DNA from: Phaeocystidibacter marisrubri
GTDB lineage: Bacteria; Bacteroidota; Bacteroidia; Flavobacteriales; Schleiferiaceae
NCBI RefSeq assembly: GCF_008933165.1
Contig: NZ_WBVQ01000001.1
Location: forward strand, 186,001-250,000
Length of the DNA: 64,000 nt
Direction of reading: 5' to 3'
Below are positions 1 to 53,238 of the stretch, one piece after another (the first letter of the stretch is position 1; each line of letters opens with the position of its first letter). Position numbers and translations under genes: made by a program. The notes under the pieces were generated by a model, which was given only the letters and a program-made list of their open reading frames with translations, searched no databases and was not told the DNA's origin.

Positions 1-3000
1 GGTCTCCATCGTGTAAAAGTTTCAGATTTGTCTTCAGGTGGATTGTCAATTGTGGGTGAACCAACCAGCGCATTGCAGCTCTATCACAATCCAGGTGGTA
101 AACTCCCTCAGCGAATTTCTGATTTTCGATACGATGACTTGGCGCAAATAGCGATCCATATCGAAGATGGTGGGGATAATGTACTGGATGCGAATGATAT
201 GGTTTACTTCTACGCAGAAGGCCCACATAGTATTGATTACAACGTTAGCAATGATCGCCTTCAGCACGATTACAATGAATATTCGGAGAGGTCGTATGTG
301 TATGCTACGGTAAACTCACAAGTGACGGGTATTCGCGTTGAAACTCAACCTTGGACAGGTGGAGCGGCAACGACTACTTCTACAGGTTTTGATGAGCTTC
401 AGTTCCACGAATTGGATGAGCGTAACATCACCGGAACGGGGAGAGAGTGGTACGGCGAAGTGTTTGACTTCAATCTTAGCCGAACATTCAACTTTTCGTT
501 TCCCAATCGCGTTCTTACTGAAGATGTCACGCTTTTAGCGCGAGGAGCAGCAAGTTCACCCGTTTCGGGTACACGTTTGGAATATGTGGAGAATGGAACG
601 ACTCAATTAGTGAGTACGTTTTCCCCTATTTTTTCTTCCATCGAATTTACAACGGCGGCTTCCCAAGTGAAGTTTTCAAGTCCGAATACGAACATTGACC
701 TAACCGTAAATTACAATAGAGGGCAGAGTACGTCCTCTTCTGCTTATCTCGATTATATCTCTGTTCAAGCTCGAAGAAGTTGGATATATTCGACGGGAGG
801 ATTCATCGCTCGCGACTTGCAATCCATAGCTACCGCTAGTGTGGTTCAATATACATTGAGCGATAACTCCGCATGGGTTTGGGATGTTACCAATCCAATT
901 CGTCCGTTCATGCCAGCAAGAGGTGTTAATGGAGAATGGCGCTCACATGGTGATTCACTTCGAACCTTTGCCGTATATCGTCCGGGTGATGCTATGTCTC
1001 CAGGCAAAATGGAAAAGGTTGCCAATCAAGACTTACACGGTATAGACGATGTGGATATGGTGATCATTTCACATCCTGAGTTCTACGACGAAGCCGTTCG
1101 CTTAGCTGATTTCCACGTTCAATATGATGGACTTACCACTGTGGTTGTGACTCCTCAGCAAGTGTACAATGAGTTCTCATGTGGCGCTCAAGACATCACT
1201 GCTATCCGCGATTTCATTCGCATGCTTTACAAGAGAAATGCAGATCCTCTGGATTACGTGTTATTGATGGGCGATGCTTCCTACGATTACAAGGATCGCG
1301 TTCCGAATAAGCAAAATTTCGTTCCTATTTATGAGTCTGTCAATTCAAACTCGCTGTATTCATCCTTTATGACCGACGATTATTTTGTTTGTGTGGGAGA
1401 TAATGATGGGGTGAACGTGAGCGTGGAAAATTTGGATGTGATGATTGGAAGAATGCCTGTCAAATCCAAAGCAGAAGCAGAAGTTGCCGTATCGAAGATC
1501 ATCGATTATAAAACCGCTCCAGAATCTTTTGGTGATTGGAGAAATCGTTTGGCATTTGTGTCGGATGATGCGGATGAAGCATGGGAAACGGTACTTACAC
1601 AAGAACCCGAATACGTGGCTTCCATTGTAGATACTACCTATCCAGCTTTCAATATTGAGAAGATTTATTCCGACAGTTATACCCAAACGAGTTCTTCGGG
1701 TAGTCAATCTTATCCTGAAGCACGCGATGCGCTTTACCGTTCCGTACAGCGCGGAAATTTAGTGACTTCCTACACGGGGCACGGAGGAGAAGTGGGGTGG
1801 TCTTCTGAACGATTACTACAGCTAGCAGATATCGATAATTGGTCCAATGGTTTGAAGTTGCCGCTATTCATAACCATCACATGCGAATTCACTCGTTTGG
1901 ACGATCCGTTTAGAACCTCGGCAGGTGAGCAACTTTACTTGAAGAGAGGCGGAGGAGCCATCGCTTTGATTTCAACCACTCGCGTGGTGTTTGTTCCGGG
2001 GGCCATTGCATTGAACAGAGCCGTGTCAGAACAACTGTTTGAGGAGGGGCAAAATGGATACCCAACCTTGGGGGAAGTGGTGCTCAACGCGAAGAATAGT
2101 GTAACTGATGGAGATAGGGTTCGGTTCAGTTTGATCGGCGATCCAGCGATTCGATTGAACATACCTATTCACCAAGTGGTATTGGACAGTTTGAATGGCG
2201 TGGATGTCAACACGGCACTCGACACGATAAAAGCTCGTGAATTGGTAACTCTCAGCGGACGAATCAACCGAAGCTCTGGGGCTTTTTATTCTGATTTCAA
2301 CGGGGAATTGTCACTTACTGTATTTGATAAACCGGTGGAGCGAGAAACAAAGCGCAATGACGGAGTAGGTGTTATTGTTCCTTTTTCTCAGCAAGAGAAT
2401 ATCATTTACAAAGGTCTTGTTACGGTGGAAAATGGACTTTGGTCCACCGAATTTATTGTACCTCGCGATATCAATTTTGCCTATGGAAATGCCAAAATAT
2501 CATTCTATGCAGAGAATGATGTAACGGATGCCATGGGTGCCGACAAGAATATCGTAGTTGGAGGCTTAGGAAATGCTCCATTTGTCGATACAGAGGGGCC
2601 TCGTATCCGACTCTTCATGAACGATACCAACTTCATTTCTGGAGGGACAACAGATGAAAATCCTATCGGACTTGCATTGCTGACGGATTCTTCGGGAATT
2701 AATGTAGTTGGAAATGGACTAGGTCATGATATAGTAGGTGTTCTAGACGGAGATGAAAGCAATACCTTTAAGCTAAATGCTTACTACGAAGCAGATGTAG
2801 ACACCTACATTTCTGGAGTTGTGAATTATCCGTTCTTTAACTTGAGCAATGGCAGACATACCTTGATGGTTCGCGTTTGGGATGTGATGAATAATGTGAG
2901 TGAGGCCACCGTAAACTTTGTGGTTGCGGATCGAGATAACCTCGTTATTGGAGAATTATTCAACTACCCGAATCCTTTTACAGATCAGACTACTTTCAGT

Positions 3001-3252
3001 TTTGAGCACAACCGTCAAGGAGAAGAATTGGATGTAGAGTTGCATATCATGGATATGAGTGGTAGAATTGTTCATTCGCAACAGAAAACTTTAAACCCAG
3101 AGGGAAACAGAACCTTGGATATGACATGGGACGCTACAACGGGATCCGGAGCAAAAGTTTCATCCGGTGTATACGTTTTTAGGTTAGTTGTTCGTTCCAA
3201 GGCAGACGGAAGTGAAGCGCAGCTAAGTGAACGATTGGTGTACCTTCGATAG
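1..3252 (+). CDS. porU: PorU-like type IX secretion sortase (5' end outside window)
   Basis: The reading frame is open from base 1, so the N-terminus lies upstream of the window; the residues before the TTG at 28 continue a typical PorU N-terminal domain (HRVKVSDL). It is a gingipain-type C25 cysteine peptidase: counting from base 1, the GHGG motif puts the catalytic His at about 594 and TCEF puts the Cys at about 628, the 33-34 residue spacing known in the family. The last ~100 residues, from YPNPF on, form a type IX secretion C-terminal domain ending GVYVFRLVV..ERLVYLR. PorU is the surface sortase that removes C-terminal signals from T9SS cargo and attaches them to anionic LPS; PorV follows directly, as in other Bacteroidota. 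About 1083 residues are visible. Confidence 0.93.
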   Translation, partial: GLHRVKVSDLSSGGLSIVGEPTSALQLYHNPGGKLPQRISDFRYDDLAQIAIHIEDGGDNVLDANDMVYFYAEGPHSIDYNVSNDRLQHDYNEYSERSYVYATVNSQVTGIRVETQPWTGGAATTTSTGFDELQFHELDERNITGTGREWYGEVFDFNLSRTFNFSFPNRVLTEDVTLLARGAASSPVSGTRLEYVENGTTQLVSTFSPIFSSIEFTTAASQVKFSSPNTNIDLTVNYNRGQSTSSSAYLDYISVQARRSWIYSTGGFIARDLQSIATASVVQYTLSDNSAWVWDVTNPIRPFMPARGVNGEWRSHGDSLRTFAVYRPGDAMSPGKMEKVANQDLHGIDDVDMVIISHPEFYDEAVRLADFHVQYDGLTTVVVTPQQVYNEFSCGAQDITAIRDFIRMLYKRNADPLDYVLLMGDASYDYKDRVPNKQNFVPIYESVNSNSLYSSFMTDDYFVCVGDNDGVNVSVENLDVMIGRMPVKSKAEAEVAVSKIIDYKTAPESFGDWRNRLAFVSDDADEAWETVLTQEPEYVASIVDTTYPAFNIEKIYSDSYTQTSSSGSQSYPEARDALYRSVQRGNLVTSYTGHGGEVGWSSERLLQLADIDNWSNGLKLPLFITITCEFTRLDDPFRTSAGEQLYLKRGGGAIALISTTRVVFVPGAIALNRAVSEQLFEEGQNGYPTLGEVVLNAKNSVTDGDRVRFSLIGDPAIRLNIPIHQVVLDSLNGVDVNTALDTIKARELVTLSGRINRSSGAFYSDFNGELSLTVFDKPVERETKRNDGVGVIVPFSQQENIIYKGLVTVENGLWSTEFIVPRDINFAYGNAKISFYAENDVTDAMGADKNIVVGGLGNAPFVDTEGPRIRLFMNDTNFISGGTTDENPIGLALLTDSSGINVVGNGLGHDIVGVLDGDESNTFKLNAYYEADVDTYISGVVNYPFFNLSNGRHTLMVRVWDVMNNVSEATVNFVVADRDNLVIGELFNYPNPFTDQTTFSFEHNRQGEELDVELHIMDMSGRIVHSQQKTLNPEGNRTLDMTWDATTGSGAKVSSGVYVFRLVVRSKADGSEAQLSERLVYLR

Positions 3253-3270
3253 TCTTCCAACTTAACCACC

Positions 3271-3278
3271 TATATTTG
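3271..3278 (+). promoter_or_regulatory. Predicted -7 element for porV
   Basis: TATATTTG fits the Bacteroidota -7 consensus TAnnTTTG and lies 22 nt before the porV ATG. No convincing TTTG -33 box is visible, so this is based on the -7 motif alone. It would give porV its own transcript in addition to read-through from porU. Confidence 0.45.
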
Positions 3279-3300
3279 TATCCTCAATCTAGAATTACAC

Positions 3301-4476
3301 ATGAAGATTAGCAGCCTATTATCAGGCATTTTAATACTTGGAGCTGGAGTTAGTGCACACGCTCAGACGTCAGCTTTTGGAGATCCGAATGTCGTTTCAT
3401 CTGCAGTTCCAGTACTTGCAATTGGACCAGATGCTCGTCAGGGTGGTATGGCCAACGTTGGAGCGGCAACAGAAGTGGATGCAAATGCCATGTTCTGGAA
3501 CACCTCCAAACTAGCCTTCATCGGTGATGGAAAAGTAGATTTGTCATTGAGCTATACGCCGTGGCTGAATAAACTGGTTCCAGACATCGACCTGTCTTAT
3601 GTGAGCTTCGCAATGGGACTCGACGACAAGCAGGCCATCGGAGCATCCCTTCGTTATTTCTCGTTGGGAAATATCACGTTTAGAGATGAAAATGGTACCG
3701 AACAGGGAGTGTACAATCCGTACGAGTTCTCGGTTGACTTTGGTTATGCACTGAAATTGTCAGATAACTGGTCTACAGGTATCGCCCTTCGATATATTTT
3801 CTCTGACCTTACGCAAGGACAAGTTGTTCAAGGATTACAAAACAGCCCCGGACAATCTGTAAGTACCGACCTTTCTCTTTACTACAGAGGTCGCCTGATG
3901 AATTTGCCTGATGGTCAGAAGGGGCGATGGTTAGGTGGTCTTGCCATTACCAACGTTGGTGCTAAGATTAGCTACAGCGATGGTGGAGCTGAAGACTTCC
4001 TTCCTACCAACCTTCGTCTAGGTGCGGGTTACGAATACCAGATGGATGAGTACAACTCATTCACAGCGTATGTAGATGTAAACCGTTTATTGATCCCTAC
4101 TCCTCCAGAGTACGATGAGAACACAGGAGAAATTGTAGCAGGTGAAGATGATAATGTGGGCGTTATTGCGGGCATTATGCAATCGTTCAACCCAAATGCA
4201 AAGCCAAATGGTTGGGATGAATTCTGGCAAGAAAACATGTATAACCTAGGTGTTGAATACTGGTACGATCACATCTTTGCGGTGAGAGCGGGTTACCAAT
4301 ACGAGCACGTGAACAAAGGAAACCGTAAGTACTTCACTGCAGGTGTTGGAATTCGATACAATACCCTTGGATTTGACTTCAGTTATTTGTTCCCTGCGAA
4401 CCAAACTGTGCGATCTCCATTGGAAAATACTTTGCGTTTTACATTGACAGTTGACTTGAACTCAGCGACGAATTAA
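3301..4476 (+). CDS. porV: Type IX secretion outer-membrane shuttle protein PorV
   Basis: A 391-residue FadL-like outer-membrane barrel with a Sec signal peptide (residues 1-21, cleavage after AHAQ). The segment following the signal (SSAVPVLAIGPDARQGGMANVGAAT, split here only in description) is the hallmark N-terminus of PorV/LptO, followed by alternating beta-strands and a C-terminal strand ending in TLRFTLTVDL. In P. gingivalis PorV carries T9SS cargo from the SprA translocon to PorU. It sits 48 nt after porU, and its stop overlaps the start of cdd (TAATGA), so the three are probably co-transcribed. ATG start at the signal peptide; no Shine-Dalgarno. Confidence 0.93.
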   Translation: MKISSLLSGILILGAGVSAHAQTSAFGDPNVVSSAVPVLAIGPDARQGGMANVGAATEVDANAMFWNTSKLAFIGDGKVDLSLSYTPWLNKLVPDIDLSYVSFAMGLDDKQAIGASLRYFSLGNITFRDENGTEQGVYNPYEFSVDFGYALKLSDNWSTGIALRYIFSDLTQGQVVQGLQNSPGQSVSTDLSLYYRGRLMNLPDGQKGRWLGGLAITNVGAKISYSDGGAEDFLPTNLRLGAGYEYQMDEYNSFTAYVDVNRLLIPTPPEYDENTGEIVAGEDDNVGVIAGIMQSFNPNAKPNGWDEFWQENMYNLGVEYWYDHIFAVRAGYQYEHVNKGNRKYFTAGVGIRYNTLGFDFSYLFPANQTVRSPLENTLRFTLTVDLNSATN

Positions 4477-48417: not shown

Positions 48418-48921
48418 TTAGATGAAGATGAGCAGCAGAGCGAAAACGAGCCCTGCAATCGTGAAATACATTCCCTTTTTAAAGATGTCGGTTCCAGGGA
48501 AATACATCCAGAAACTTGAGATGACAAAGAAGAGCAGGGAAAGGCCGAAGAATACATTTAGAAAGGACAGAGGACGACTGCTCGTCGCTTTGTGAAGATG
48601 TAGGAGTTGATCCAAAACAAAGGGTGTTTCCTTTACTGTATAATGAGCCATTCCGGTAGTGCGGTTGTATACGCCATCGCGGAAGAATACTTCGGCTCCA
48701 CTTGTGCTATCAACGCGAAATCTGCGCATCTCAAGGGCTTTTCCGAGGGCTTCTTCCCCCAAATTTTCTCCGATGTTTTTCGAAATATTTTCTACTCGCT
48801 TAAATGTGTCCGTGTCTCGGTATACGAGAACAACACCGCTCAATGCATAAACTGACATGATGCCTGTGAGAAAGAAGCCCAGGTATCGGTGAATAACGCG
48901 CATGCGTTGGTGTGCTTTCAT
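48418..48921 (-). CDS. PepSY-type membrane protein
   Basis: A 167-residue protein with an N-terminal helix (YLGFFLTGIMSVYALSGVVLVYRD), a periplasmic PepSY-like segment, and two C-terminal helices (FLNVFFGLSLLFFVISSFWMY; MYFTIAGLVFALLLIFI). Conserved His residues near the helices (HRYLGF, LLHLHKA) are typical of PepSY-associated iron-reductase-like proteins and could bind haem (inference). It begins 19 nt after the TonB-dependent receptor and shares its terminator, so it likely works with it in uptake, perhaps of iron. Confidence 0.8.
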   Translation of the reverse strand: MKAHQRMRVIHRYLGFFLTGIMSVYALSGVVLVYRDTDTFKRVENISKNIGENLGEEALGKALEMRRFRVDSTSGAEVFFRDGVYNRTTGMAHYTVKETPFVLDQLLHLHKATSSRPLSFLNVFFGLSLLFFVISSFWMYFPGTDIFKKGMYFTIAGLVFALLLIFI

Positions 48922-48940: not shown

Positions 48941-51325
48941 TTAATGTCTTCCGCCTCCCGAGTAAGACATCGCCTCTCCCTTGCCAAAACCGTAGCTGAT
49001 GCCAAAGGTGAGGAAGGTACCGCGTTGGGAGAAGTTGTACATATAGTAGTTCGGCTGATTGATGGTGGTTTCGCGGACACGTGTAGCGAAAATGTCTTGC
49101 ACGCCGAGATTCATGACCAGTTTGCCGTTCCAAAGTTTTTTGCGAACGCCAGCATTGAAGAAAGCAAAGCCTGAAACTCGTCCTTGAATGGTTTCATAGC
49201 TCGAGTTGTAACGGGTGGTGATTTCTAAGTCAAATTCGGCTGGAAGTGCAAACTTGGTGGTGAGCTTTCCATCCCATTGATCGCTGGAATAATCAAAGTT
49301 TTGAGATTGATAGTCCGCATCACGGGTGAAGTAGCCATAGTTGAAATCACCGGTCAAGTCGAACCAGTCCGTTACAGTCCACTTCCCGTTTACTTCAACT
49401 CCCACTTTCTGACGGGTCCCAATATTGATCGGCATGGTGAGGTTTACCCCGTTCTCATAGCGGGTTACATACTCCACTACATCGGTAGTGTACAAGTAAT
49501 ACAAACTCGCATTGATGCTGTAGTCATTGCGAACAAGGATTCCCGTCAATTCATAGGAATCGGCAAATTCAGGTTGAAGTTCTGGATTCCCTGTTCTCAC
49601 ATTATAGTTGTTTCGAATATTGAAGAACGGATTGAGGTTCCACAATCTCGGACGATAGATTCTCTTGGAATATCCAGCTTGAAGTGAGAAGCCGTTGCCC
49701 CATTTGTAATGGGTGTGTAGGCTTGGAAACAAGTTCGAATAGTTCTGATAGTTGTTATCTCCCGTGTTTTCCAGAACCGTGGTCAGTTCAGTGTTTTCAA
49801 CGCGAACGCCGACTTTTACTCCCCAACTTTCGGTTTCATACGCCCCGGTTACATAGCCTGCCAAAACTTTTTGGATATAGGTGAAATCGTTGGTTAGACT
49901 GGAATCGATCTCCCATACAGAGCCTTTCAAGTTGCGAACAGAGTAGTCATTTCCCACATCGTTTATTTCATACATCGCCCCTGTTTCAAGCGTGAAAAGC
50001 TCGCTTAGTGGGTCGGTGTAATCCAACTTGAATGTGTAATCGGTTTGATAGAAATTCGTTGCTGTTCTTTGATCCGAGAAATTGGCAGTTCCTACTTCGT
50101 AACTGTTGAAGAATTCAGAAGATTGGTCTTTTCCGAAGAAATGCCCAAGAGTGCTAAAGATTAACTGATGGTCTTCGTGATCCTCAAATTGCTTGGAATA
50201 CTGGAGATCGTAGCGGTACTTCGGATTCAGTGCAGAGGTCTCTTCAATTCTTGAATAGGCAGAATTGAGGTTGCCTTTAGGGTCGTAGATTTCGAAGTTG
50301 GTTTCGGAAGGTTGACTTTCAATTTCATACGCGAAATTTCCAGAGAGTGTAATCACGTTGAGGTCATTGATGTAATAGTCGGTTCCCAAAGTGATGTTGT
50401 AGAACTCTTCATTTCTGTAGTCCTCTCCGGAGCTTTGAATCGTGAGACTGTCGCTAGAATTCTGACTAATACTCTCATTGTAATTTGGGCGAGTTCGATA
50501 TCCAGCTCCCAACTGGGTGAAGAAGTTGAAATTCTCCGTGCGGTAATTCAGACTTGCACCCACGCTGTGATTGTTTGGGTATCCCGTGTTTAAACTCACA
50601 GAGCCATTCATGCCTTTCTTCTCTTCCTTCTTCAATACAATATTGAGGATACCTGAAGTTCCTTCGGCTTGGTACTTGGCTGATGGATTCGTAATCACTT
50701 CAATGCGCTCAATCATATCCGCGGTGATGGTACCTAAAGCATTGCTCGGGTCATCCGATAGAACAGATGGCTTTCCGTTAATCATGATTTGAACTCCGCT
50801 GTTTCCTCTCAAGCTGACTTGTCCTTCAATATCCACATTCACAGAAGGGACGTTGTTTAAGACATCCATGGCTCCCATGCCAGAAGTGGAAAGGTCAGAG
50901 CCAACATTAAATACTCGTTTGTCCATCTGGAATTCCACCGAAGATCTTTCAGCTACAATCTCCACTTCATTTAAATTCTGAGAGGAGGCTGTCATTTGAA
51001 TGGTGCCTAAATTCTGTGTTCCAGATTGAACTGAAGGAAGGATTTGTACGTCTTCATATCCCATCAAGACGATTTCCACATACACTTTAGAAATAGGAGA
51101 ACTTACGGTAAAGGCACCTTCTATATCTGTGGTTACACTTGTGGTCAGTTCATCCGTTTCAGAATTTCTGATGGCCACAACGGTGTAGGGCAGGGGTTCA
51201 GAATTTGAGGCATCTACAACGGTTCCTGTAAAGGTGATTCCTTTCTGTTGAGCCATTCCCAAGGAAGAAACGGCGAGAAGCACGGTGAGAATTACAAATT
51301 TGCTGATGCGTTGCATGAAGAACAT
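48941..51325 (-). CDS. TonB-dependent outer-membrane receptor
   Basis: About 794 residues: signal peptide (FVILTVLLAVSSLGMAQQ), a carboxypeptidase-regulatory-like beta-sandwich (GTVVDASNSEPLPYTVV), a plug domain (VLNNVPSVNVDIEGQVSLRGNSGVQIMINGKPS) and a 22-strand-type barrel ending FLTFGISYGFGKGEAM with a short GGGRH tail. This is the outer-membrane beta-barrel receptor subfamily found widely in Bacteroidota; the ligand is not evident. Start taken at ATG 51325 (ATG 51316 equally possible); the upstream extension is non-signal sequence. Divergent from the LytS/LytTR pair, with repeats suggestive of control by it. Confidence 0.88.
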   Translation of the reverse strand: MFFMQRISKFVILTVLLAVSSLGMAQQKGITFTGTVVDASNSEPLPYTVVAIRNSETDELTTSVTTDIEGAFTVSSPISKVYVEIVLMGYEDVQILPSVQSGTQNLGTIQMTASSQNLNEVEIVAERSSVEFQMDKRVFNVGSDLSTSGMGAMDVLNNVPSVNVDIEGQVSLRGNSGVQIMINGKPSVLSDDPSNALGTITADMIERIEVITNPSAKYQAEGTSGILNIVLKKEEKKGMNGSVSLNTGYPNNHSVGASLNYRTENFNFFTQLGAGYRTRPNYNESISQNSSDSLTIQSSGEDYRNEEFYNITLGTDYYINDLNVITLSGNFAYEIESQPSETNFEIYDPKGNLNSAYSRIEETSALNPKYRYDLQYSKQFEDHEDHQLIFSTLGHFFGKDQSSEFFNSYEVGTANFSDQRTATNFYQTDYTFKLDYTDPLSELFTLETGAMYEINDVGNDYSVRNLKGSVWEIDSSLTNDFTYIQKVLAGYVTGAYETESWGVKVGVRVENTELTTVLENTGDNNYQNYSNLFPSLHTHYKWGNGFSLQAGYSKRIYRPRLWNLNPFFNIRNNYNVRTGNPELQPEFADSYELTGILVRNDYSINASLYYLYTTDVVEYVTRYENGVNLTMPINIGTRQKVGVEVNGKWTVTDWFDLTGDFNYGYFTRDADYQSQNFDYSSDQWDGKLTTKFALPAEFDLEITTRYNSSYETIQGRVSGFAFFNAGVRKKLWNGKLVMNLGVQDIFATRVRETTINQPNYYMYNFSQRGTFLTFGISYGFGKGEAMSYSGGGRH

Positions 51326-51336
51326 TTTATCGAGTA

Positions 51337-51368
51337 CAAAGGTGTAAAGCAATTGCGTATCATTTAAA
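51337..51368 (-). promoter_or_regulatory. Predicted promoter of the TonB-dependent receptor
   Basis: On the minus strand TTTA (51365-51368), a 20-bp spacer and CACCTTTG (51337-51344), one mismatch from TAnnTTTG, lying 11 nt before ATG 51325. A GTCGT repeat pair starts 6 bp upstream of the -33 element. Confidence 0.45.
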
Positions 51369-51374
51369 TTCAAT

Positions 51375-51410
51375 CGCCAAACGACACTTTGAGTACGCTT
51401 AACGACACAT
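51375..51410 (-). promoter_or_regulatory. LytTR-type direct repeat pair facing the receptor gene
   Basis: Read on the minus strand, GTGTCGTTAAGCG (51396-51408) and GTGTCGTTTGGCG (51375-51387) are direct repeats offset by exactly 21 bp, two helical turns. The CGTTnRG core fits the general LytTR half-site pattern. They sit just upstream of the receptor's predicted -33 element. Confidence 0.55.
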
Positions 51411-51444
51411 TTATAATGTTTAGACATTGAATAGTGTTCATGGG

Positions 51445-51477
51445 ATGTCGTCTAGGGGCTTAAAATGGTCGTTTACC
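51445..51477 (+). promoter_or_regulatory. LytTR-type direct repeat pair facing the histidine kinase gene
   Basis: On the plus strand ATGTCGTCTAGG (51445-51456) and TGGTCGTTTACC (51466-51477) share GTCGT and TA at the same positions, offset again by 21 bp. The second copy ends 6 bp before the predicted -33 element (51484) of the kinase promoter. Confidence 0.45.
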
Positions 51478-51483
51478 GAATAT

Positions 51484-51516
51484 GTTGAGGCGCTTGTTTG
51501 GATGTGCCTACCTTTG
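51484..51516 (+). promoter_or_regulatory. Predicted promoter of the histidine kinase gene
   Basis: GTTG (51484-51487), a 21-bp spacer and TACCTTTG (51509-51516), a perfect -7 match only 4 nt before the ATG at 51521. It overlaps codons that would be used from the ATG at 51482 and so argues for the later start and a leaderless or near-leaderless mRNA. Confidence 0.5.
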
Positions 51517-51520
51517 TTTC

Positions 51521-52555
51521 ATGTTGAACAAAAGAGTTGTGGATAGAGCGGTTTGGAGTGAAATTGCATTTCAAGTGATACTGTTGTTCACGGTCTTCAT
51601 TTTCTATGCTTTTGATGTTCGTCACAATTCAACGGGCACCTATGTGGAAGAATATGAGGTGGCGTTCTTTATGAATTATGCGATTGCAGCCATGTTGATT
51701 AATTACTGGTTGCTCCCAAAGTTCTTGTATAAGAAGCGATACGTGCCATTTGTTGTTTTTCTTCTACTCATTATTGCCGCCGTGATTTACGTGGAAGAGG
51801 AAGTGTTAGAAGCCATCTACTTTCCCACCACTCGTGCGGGTAAATTTCCCGGTGTGTTCTTCAACTTGGTAGCGGCTATGCCCACCATCACCATTCTCAC
51901 CGGGTTCAAGTTCGGCTGGGATGCTTTCCATCAGCAAAGGAAGCTGGAACAGTTGGCCTTAACGGCAAAGGAGAGTGAGTTGCAGTATTTGAAGTCCCAG
52001 ATTAATCCCCATTTTCTCTTCAATAATCTGAATAATCTCTATGCCCATGCTTTGGAGCATTCAGAGAAGACCCCTGATATCATTCTAGAGCTCTCTGGAG
52101 TTTTGCGGTACATGCTGTACGAATGCAAAGAGGAGTATGTTTCAATTCAAAAGGAGGTAGAACAACTTCAGAATTTCATTCAGCTCAGTGCATTGCAAAT
52201 TGAAGATCGCGGAGAGATTCATGTTGATGTAGGAAGGATGGATGCCAATTTTCAGATTGCTCCGCTCATCCTCATTGTATTTATTGAGAATGCTGTGAAG
52301 CACAGTTCATCTAGCATGCACGATAACATTCACATCTCCATCCATCTTCACATGGAAGAGGAGGAGTTGGTGTTCCAATGCGAGAACACCTATTCCGACG
52401 AATCGAACGCAGATGACCTGGCACATGGAATTGGCCTGTTGAATGTGAAGAAGCGCTTGAAGCTTCTCTATCCGGATAAGCACGAATTGAAAGTGAAGGC
52501 TGAAGGAGATCGCTACACGGTGAATCTTCGTTTAAAATTGAAACCTAGGGTATGA
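51521..52555 (+). CDS. LytS/YpdA-type sensor histidine kinase
   Basis: A ~344-residue kinase with four N-terminal membrane helices (to about residue 120), a short coiled coil (KLEQLALTAKESELQYLKSQ) and a His_kinase domain: phospho-acceptor His in QINPHFLFNNLN and N-box IVFIENAVKHS. No periplasmic sensor domain is seen, so the signal is probably sensed in the membrane. I prefer ATG 51521 (MLNKRVVDRAVWSE) to ATG 51482 because a promoter overlaps the first 13 codons of the longer form. It overlaps its LytTR partner by 4 nt. Confidence 0.9.
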   Translation: MLNKRVVDRAVWSEIAFQVILLFTVFIFYAFDVRHNSTGTYVEEYEVAFFMNYAIAAMLINYWLLPKFLYKKRYVPFVVFLLLIIAAVIYVEEEVLEAIYFPTTRAGKFPGVFFNLVAAMPTITILTGFKFGWDAFHQQRKLEQLALTAKESELQYLKSQINPHFLFNNLNNLYAHALEHSEKTPDIILELSGVLRYMLYECKEEYVSIQKEVEQLQNFIQLSALQIEDRGEIHVDVGRMDANFQIAPLILIVFIENAVKHSSSSMHDNIHISIHLHMEEEELVFQCENTYSDESNADDLAHGIGLLNVKKRLKLLYPDKHELKVKAEGDRYTVNLRLKLKPRV

Positions 52556-53238
52556 TTCGCTGTATTGTCATCGAAGATCAGGCTCCAGCTCAACGGGTGC
52601 TAAAGAAGTTTATCGCTGATGTTGACTATTTGGATCTCCGCGAGGTTTTCAATAATGCGATTCAAGCGATGGAGTACTTGAAGTCGGAACCTGTGGATTT
52701 GATGTTCTTGGACGTCAACTTACCGAAGATAAACGGGATGGATTTTTTGGCTTCTTTACAAAACCCTCCACGAGTTATTCTGACCACGGCATTTACGGAG
52801 TATGCCCTGCAAGGGTATGAATACAACGTGGTAGATTATTTGGTCAAGCCCTTCTCTTTTGAGCGATTTGTGAAGGCGGTTTCCAAAGTTCCACAAGAAC
52901 TCCCGCAGAAAAGCGAGGCCGCTGCTTCTCAGCCTATGTTTATCAAGGTGGGTTTCGATTGGGTAAAAGTGAATAGCGCAGACATCACACACATTCACTC
53001 CGATATGGATTATACCGAAGTAAATGTGGGAGATAAAGTGTATTTGTCACAGGATTCATTGACTTCCTGGGAGCAGAAATTGGACAATCTTGGATTTACA
53101 CGAATTCATAAATCGTATTTGCTGAATACAGAGCAAATTGAAAAGATTTCAGGCAATCGTGTTTACACCAAATCAGGAGTAGAATTACCTATTGGTAGAG
53201 CGTATAAGGACGATTTCTTGTCTAGGATACTCAGCTGA
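52552..53238 (+). CDS. LytTR-family response regulator
   Basis: A 228-residue regulator: receiver domain (1-120; phospho-acceptor Asp in FLDVNLP, switch Thr in ILTTAFTEYA, Lys in YLVKPFSF) and a C-terminal LytTR DNA-binding domain (about 130-228; FIKVGFDWVKVNSADITHIHSD, FTRIHKSYLLN, LPIGRAYKD). LytTR proteins bind pairs of direct repeats about two turns apart; such pairs occur in the divergent promoter region at 51375-51477. The stop region overlaps the convergent flavoprotein gene by 8 nt. Confidence 0.94.
   Translation: MIRCIVIEDQAPAQRVLKKFIADVDYLDLREVFNNAIQAMEYLKSEPVDLMFLDVNLPKINGMDFLASLQNPPRVILTTAFTEYALQGYEYNVVDYLVKPFSFERFVKAVSKVPQELPQKSEAAASQPMFIKVGFDWVKVNSADITHIHSDMDYTEVNVGDKVYLSQDSLTSWEQKLDNLGFTRIHKSYLLNTEQIEKISGNRVYTKSGVELPIGRAYKDDFLSRILS

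Follow-up and report, generated by a model that had tools for sequence, protein, structure and literature searches.

Conserved LytTR-type repeat pairs between a TonB-dependent receptor operon and a kinase-regulator operon in Phaeocystidibacter marisrubri

Introduction

LytTR regulators bind two repeats of 9–11 nt with spacers of 11–13 nt (PMC4847170). In hdrRM-type operons, which are positively autoregulated, the repeats are located about 10 bp upstream of the −35 element (PMC6193735), and the AgrA repeats are centred near −60 (PMC4227749). The LRS-like operons of Bacteroides carry 11-bp repeats with an 11-bp spacer, corresponding to a 22-bp period, upstream of a TATCTTTG promoter (PMC6193735). 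Operons that combine a TonB-dependent receptor (TBDR) with a PepSY_TM protein are known elsewhere to import copper or ferric siderophores (PMC12914433).

The Bacteroidota possess very many TonB receptors, the regulation of which is mostly unmapped. Here, we analysed a 64,000-nt stretch of the P. marisrubri genome (the window, at its full length), where direct repeats lie in a 204-bp gap between a receptor gene and the genes of a LytTR two-component system.

Results

Genes of the Locus

On the minus strand, the locus contains a gene for a TonB-dependent receptor of 791 aa (48941–51316), with matches to PF14905, a plug domain and a CarboxypepD_reg-like domain. A gene for a short PepSY_TM-like membrane protein of 167 aa (48418–48921, minus strand) starts 19 bp behind it, and the two genes probably form one operon. 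The PF03929 match of this protein reaches 25.8 bits, which is under the curated cut-off of 28.8 bits, and that of an ortholog reaches 28.5 bits. On the plus strand, a membrane histidine kinase of 344 aa (51521–52555; PF06580), for which the hydropathy predicts about four membrane helices, adjoins a response regulator of 228 aa (52552–53238) with a receiver (PF00072) and a LytTR domain (PF04397). This is the composition of a LytS/LytTR-type two-component system. It is not that of a LytTR Regulatory System (LRS), in which the regulator has no receiver and a membrane inhibitor replaces the kinase, since both the receiver and the kinase are present here.

The receptor likely starts at ATG 51316 and not at 51427 of the mechanical ORF, on the basis of the ortholog alignment and a signal-peptide-like N-terminus, and the kinase likely starts at ATG 51521 and not at 51482 of the longer mechanical ORF. 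The homology search for a receptor ligand gave only generic receptor matches in Pfam and NCBIfam, and the comparison with solved structures gave only weak plug-region matches to ferric enterobactin receptors, so that no ligand is named. At some ortholog loci, a gene for a YceI-like protein (PF04264) follows the receptor, at 657–1217 in L064 and at 816–1376 in L076, with PepSY-type genes behind it.

Repeats and Promoters in the Gap

The motif GTCGT occurs at 51447–51451 and 51468–51472 on the plus strand and at 51402–51406 and 51381–51385 on the minus strand, which confirms the four copies, two per strand with an offset of 21 bp, that an earlier note on this DNA had reported. The offset is exactly 21 bp on both strands, and no further such pair is present in the window. 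The pattern GTCGT-N16-GTCGT has 10 copies in the 3.35 Mb genome, two of which lie within one 92-bp stretch of the gap, where about 0.0005 copies would be expected in 204 bp at the rate given by the other eight. The reversed control pattern has 23 copies genome-wide, which indicates that the clustering is unusual and the pattern itself is not.

The half-site is 10 bp long, with the consensus GTCGTTTACC and the core GTTNR, and is repeated directly with a 21-bp period. Before the regulator's own promoter, the distal half-site GTCGTCTAGG lies at 51447–51456 and the proximal half-site GTCGTTTACC at 51468–51477, both on the plus strand. Before the receptor promoter, the distal half-site GTCGTTAAGC lies at 51397–51406 and the proximal half-site GTCGTTTGGC at 51376–51385, both on the minus strand. 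All four half-sites were read from the sequence and are kept in orthologs.

A good Bacteroidota promoter for the kinase, TTG-N21-TACCTTTG, is predicted at 51485–51516 on the plus strand (TTG at 51485–51487, −7 box at 51509–51516), and the predicted receptor promoter, TTT-N21-CACCTTTG, is at 51337–51368 on the minus strand (TTT at 51368–51366, −7 box at 51344–51337). A minus-strand TTG at 51373–51371 is unlikely as the −33 element, as its spacer would be 26 bp, and the TTT with the 21-bp spacer was preferred. With the TTT at the matching spacing, the repeat ends 7 bp upstream of the −33 element on both strands, and the distance from the proximal half-site to the start of the −7 box is 41 bp on both strands. 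The two strands superimpose base for base in the order of half-site, 11 bp, half-site, 7 bp, −33 triplet, 21 bp and −7 box. The earlier note had placed the end of each pair about 6 bp before a −33 element; the position just upstream of this element stands for both strands, at a distance of 7 bp, with the minus-strand element reassigned.

These dimensions agree with those of LytTR-type sites, where the 10-bp half-sites correspond to direct repeats of 9–11 nt, and the 21-bp period, the only offset enriched in the ortholog gaps, corresponds to a spacer of 11–13 bp (a period of about 21–22 bp). The short fixed distance upstream of the promoter is represented by the 7 bp to the −33 element and by the 41–42 bp to the −7 box, which was found in 36 of 43 sites of the ortholog loci.

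In the window, the −7 box of the kinase promoter ends 4 nt before the ATG. This distance is exactly 4 nt in 10 of the 14 orthologs checked and 5 nt in one more. Given this spacing in most of these orthologs, a leaderless kinase mRNA is probable, and it is probably a conserved feature; in Flavobacterium psychrophilum, only 5.5% of mRNAs are leaderless (PMC9723704). The loci listed with this spacing are the window (51509–51523), L054, L064, L065, L068–L070, L075, L076, L078 and L113.

Conservation across Ortholog Loci

Orthologs of the regulator were sought in 99 relatives and in a collection of 84,980 species genomes. The divergent arrangement of TBDR and kinase-regulator (HK-LytTR) genes was found at 22 loci including the window, that is, in 21 further Bacteroidota genomes, where the proteins are about 45–60% identical; the loci span Flavobacteriales, Cytophagales (Marinoscillum, Roseivirga) and a Saprospiraceae MAG. 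Same-strand GTYGTT pairs at an offset of 21 occur 19 times in 28 ortholog gaps and never in 100 dinucleotide shuffles, with at most one pair at any other offset. Related loci are not fully independent draws, but apart from the pairs their gaps have diverged at this level of protein identity. The conservation of the pairs and of their 21-bp offset in orthologous loci, on which the earlier proposal had been made to depend beforehand, is thus seen widely.

The weight matrix detected the pair on both strands in 21 of the 22 divergent loci, and the minus site of the Saprospiraceae locus (L111) was weak. Because the initial matrix had been derived from these loci, leave-clade-out training was used to limit the circularity; 43 of the 44 strand-sites then scored above every one of 200 shuffles of the respective gap, and one site gave p = 0.005. 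The distance of 41–42 bp was counted from the first G of the proximal half-site to the TTTG of the −7 box (TAnnTTTG), and each other distance is represented by at most two sites. The information per column is 1.0–1.2 bits in the half-site cores and 0.3–0.4 bits in the spacers. By this comparison, the repeat pairs have persisted over a very long evolutionary time among marine bacteria that are only distantly related. In Aquimarina L072 and L076, the plus strand at 3869–3924 carries three in-phase half-sites in 21-bp steps before the kinase, forming two overlapping pairs, which is possibly a longer array of the regulator.

Rearranged Loci and Loci without the Regulator

In Aureivirga, the module is scattered, where the receptor ortholog is about 5 kb from the kinase-regulator (HK-RR) operon and the PepSY ortholog is on another contig. 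The pair is present before the HK-RR operon, before the receptor and before the PepSY gene, the latter two having turned up in a genome-wide pattern search. In the Flavobacteriaceae genome G100, a second receptor-kinase-regulator operon also carries the pair. In Winogradskyella L066 and L084, the receptor is downstream of the regulator in an HK-RR-TBDR operon, and only the plus pair was seen, which is weak in L084. When the composite pattern (the pair together with a correctly spaced TTTG) was counted in the 27 genomes holding the system, 22 of the 41 matches were at module promoters, and the remaining 19 were within the control level of 25.

No pair was found upstream of the receptor orthologs of G001, which is of the same genus, and G031 (59% and 63% identical), where no close regulator was found, nor upstream of the 52%-identical receptor orthologs of G112 and G116, where the regulator adjoins another receptor. 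In Flexithrix L079, Mesonia L080 and Tamlana L083, the pair is carried by an adjacent receptor of another type, which has no PF14905 match. The regulators of these three loci form a sub-clade, and the different-type TonB receptor is followed by an unnamed protein of about 405 aa with no Pfam match, for which an assignment as DUF4374 was dropped for that reason. The pair was found only on the receptor side in L080 and L083, and none was found before the kinase in L079, which indicates that autoregulation is not universal. Regulators whose loci carry sites group almost entirely in one clade, with 2 label changes on the tree against 22.9 in shuffles. In L073, the regulator ortholog at 2612–3319 is possibly a decaying copy, as neither a kinase nor a receptor nor a repeat pair was found in the retrieved stretch.

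Search for Further Targets

When the P. marisrubri genome was searched for degenerate pairs, these were no more frequent than matches to the reversed control (99 against 113), so that no wider regulon is visible; this result fits a local regulator and adds no independent targets. The genome contains 13 LytTR-domain matches. At these paralogs and at distant LytTR loci (L059–L063, L085–L118), no overall enrichment was found (41 against 54 in the reversed control), which indicates that the motif is largely confined to this regulator clade. Possible exceptions are the LytTR systems of Chitinophagaceae L088, L089 and L092 (39–40% identical), where a weaker pair lies near 3860, at the same place before the kinase.

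Discussion

It is highly probable that the four repeats represent two sites of the LytTR regulator encoded at 52552–53238, which would activate the receptor-PepSY operon and its own kinase-regulator operon. The regulator encoded at the locus is taken as the binder because the pair co-migrates with the receptor and PepSY genes and is absent from receptor orthologs lacking the regulator. The same observations, together with the conservation in orthologs, support the earlier claim that this regulator controls both the receptor-PepSY operon and itself. As the sites match the geometry of those described previously (PMC4847170, PMC6193735, PMC4227749), we infer that the local regulator activates the two operons, with positive feedback. 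In the proposed mechanism, the membrane kinase (51521–52555) would sense a signal and phosphorylate the regulator, a dimer of which would occupy one face of the DNA across two turns, as the 21-bp period suggests, with the centre of the pair about 60 bp before the predicted transcription start. The phosphorylated regulator would then activate the receptor-PepSY operon leftwards and its own operon rightwards, forming a positive feedback loop.

The same regulator could instead repress one or both promoters through the same sites, or activate the receptor and repress itself. The sign of control is unreadable from the sequence, and opposite control of divergent promoters is common. However, on both strands the pair directly precedes the −33 element and leaves the promoter itself uncovered, in the same 41–42 bp register, and characterised LytTR activators occupy such an upstream position (PMC6193735, PMC4227749), which makes repression unlikely.

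Binding by another protein, namely, one of the LytTR paralogs or a metal-responsive regulator (Fur, for example), is less probable still: the genome offers the LytTR-domain matches counted above, but their loci show no comparable cluster, and the sites track this regulator clade and are missing at receptor orthologs in genomes lacking it. The direct repeats at 21 bp also differ from the palindrome of Fur-type sites. Chance, or conservation for a reason other than binding of the regulator, is hardly credible; the GTCGT pair is rare and not unique in the single genome (10 copies), but this explanation is contradicted by the enrichment across orthologs (19 against 0 in shuffles), the fixed promoter spacing and the co-migration with the target genes.

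As a reasonable guess to begin with, and no more, the ligand may be a metal or a complex of one, because the TBDR-PepSY_TM operons known elsewhere import copper or ferric siderophores. The search of open-licence literature found no paper on LytTR, TonB-dependent and PepSY proteins relevant to this module. The binding-site type is already known, and it appears that the family member is new and the module is undescribed in the literature searched. More tentatively, at slightly less than an even chance, the loci may represent a widespread undescribed Bacteroidota module, where a single clade of LytTR two-component systems retains the repeat pair and swaps the receptor, either of the OMP_b-brl_3 type or of a different TonB-receptor type with the unnamed partner of about 405 aa. 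Kinase, regulator and receptor would then make up a single uptake switch, usually autoregulated, in which the kinase mRNA is leaderless. The analysis provides an operator sequence, concrete and open to testing, for LytTR two-component systems of one clade that would control TonB-dependent uptake in Bacteroidota. With this operator, any genome can be searched for genes under such regulators, and these genes can lead to the ligand.

Comparison with Known Systems

The sites resemble those of YpdB at PyhjX, AgrA at agr P2-P3 and HdrR at hdrRM in that direct repeats, each about 10 bp long and spaced by about two turns, lie just upstream of the promoter, and agr and hdrRM also share the divergent or self-activating arrangement of operons. 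They differ from the YpdB, AgrA and HdrR sites in the half-site GTCGTTTACC, the Bacteroidota −33/−7 promoters and the target, which is a TonB-dependent receptor-PepSY operon. The LRS-like operons of Bacteroides likewise combine a LytTR regulator with repeats upstream of a Bacteroidota promoter (PMC6193735), whereas their regulators are membrane-spanning one-component proteins paired with an NfeD/DUF2154 protein, and the present system consists of a classical kinase and a receiver-LytTR regulator. The association between a TonB-dependent transporter and a membrane protein of the PepSY_TM type is shared with the CrtA/bp2921 operon of Bordetella (copper) and the FoxB operon of Pseudomonas (siderophore reductase) (PMC12914433), from which the present module is distinguished by another receptor family, a different mode of regulation, the short PepSY protein of 167 aa and the attached LytTR two-component system.
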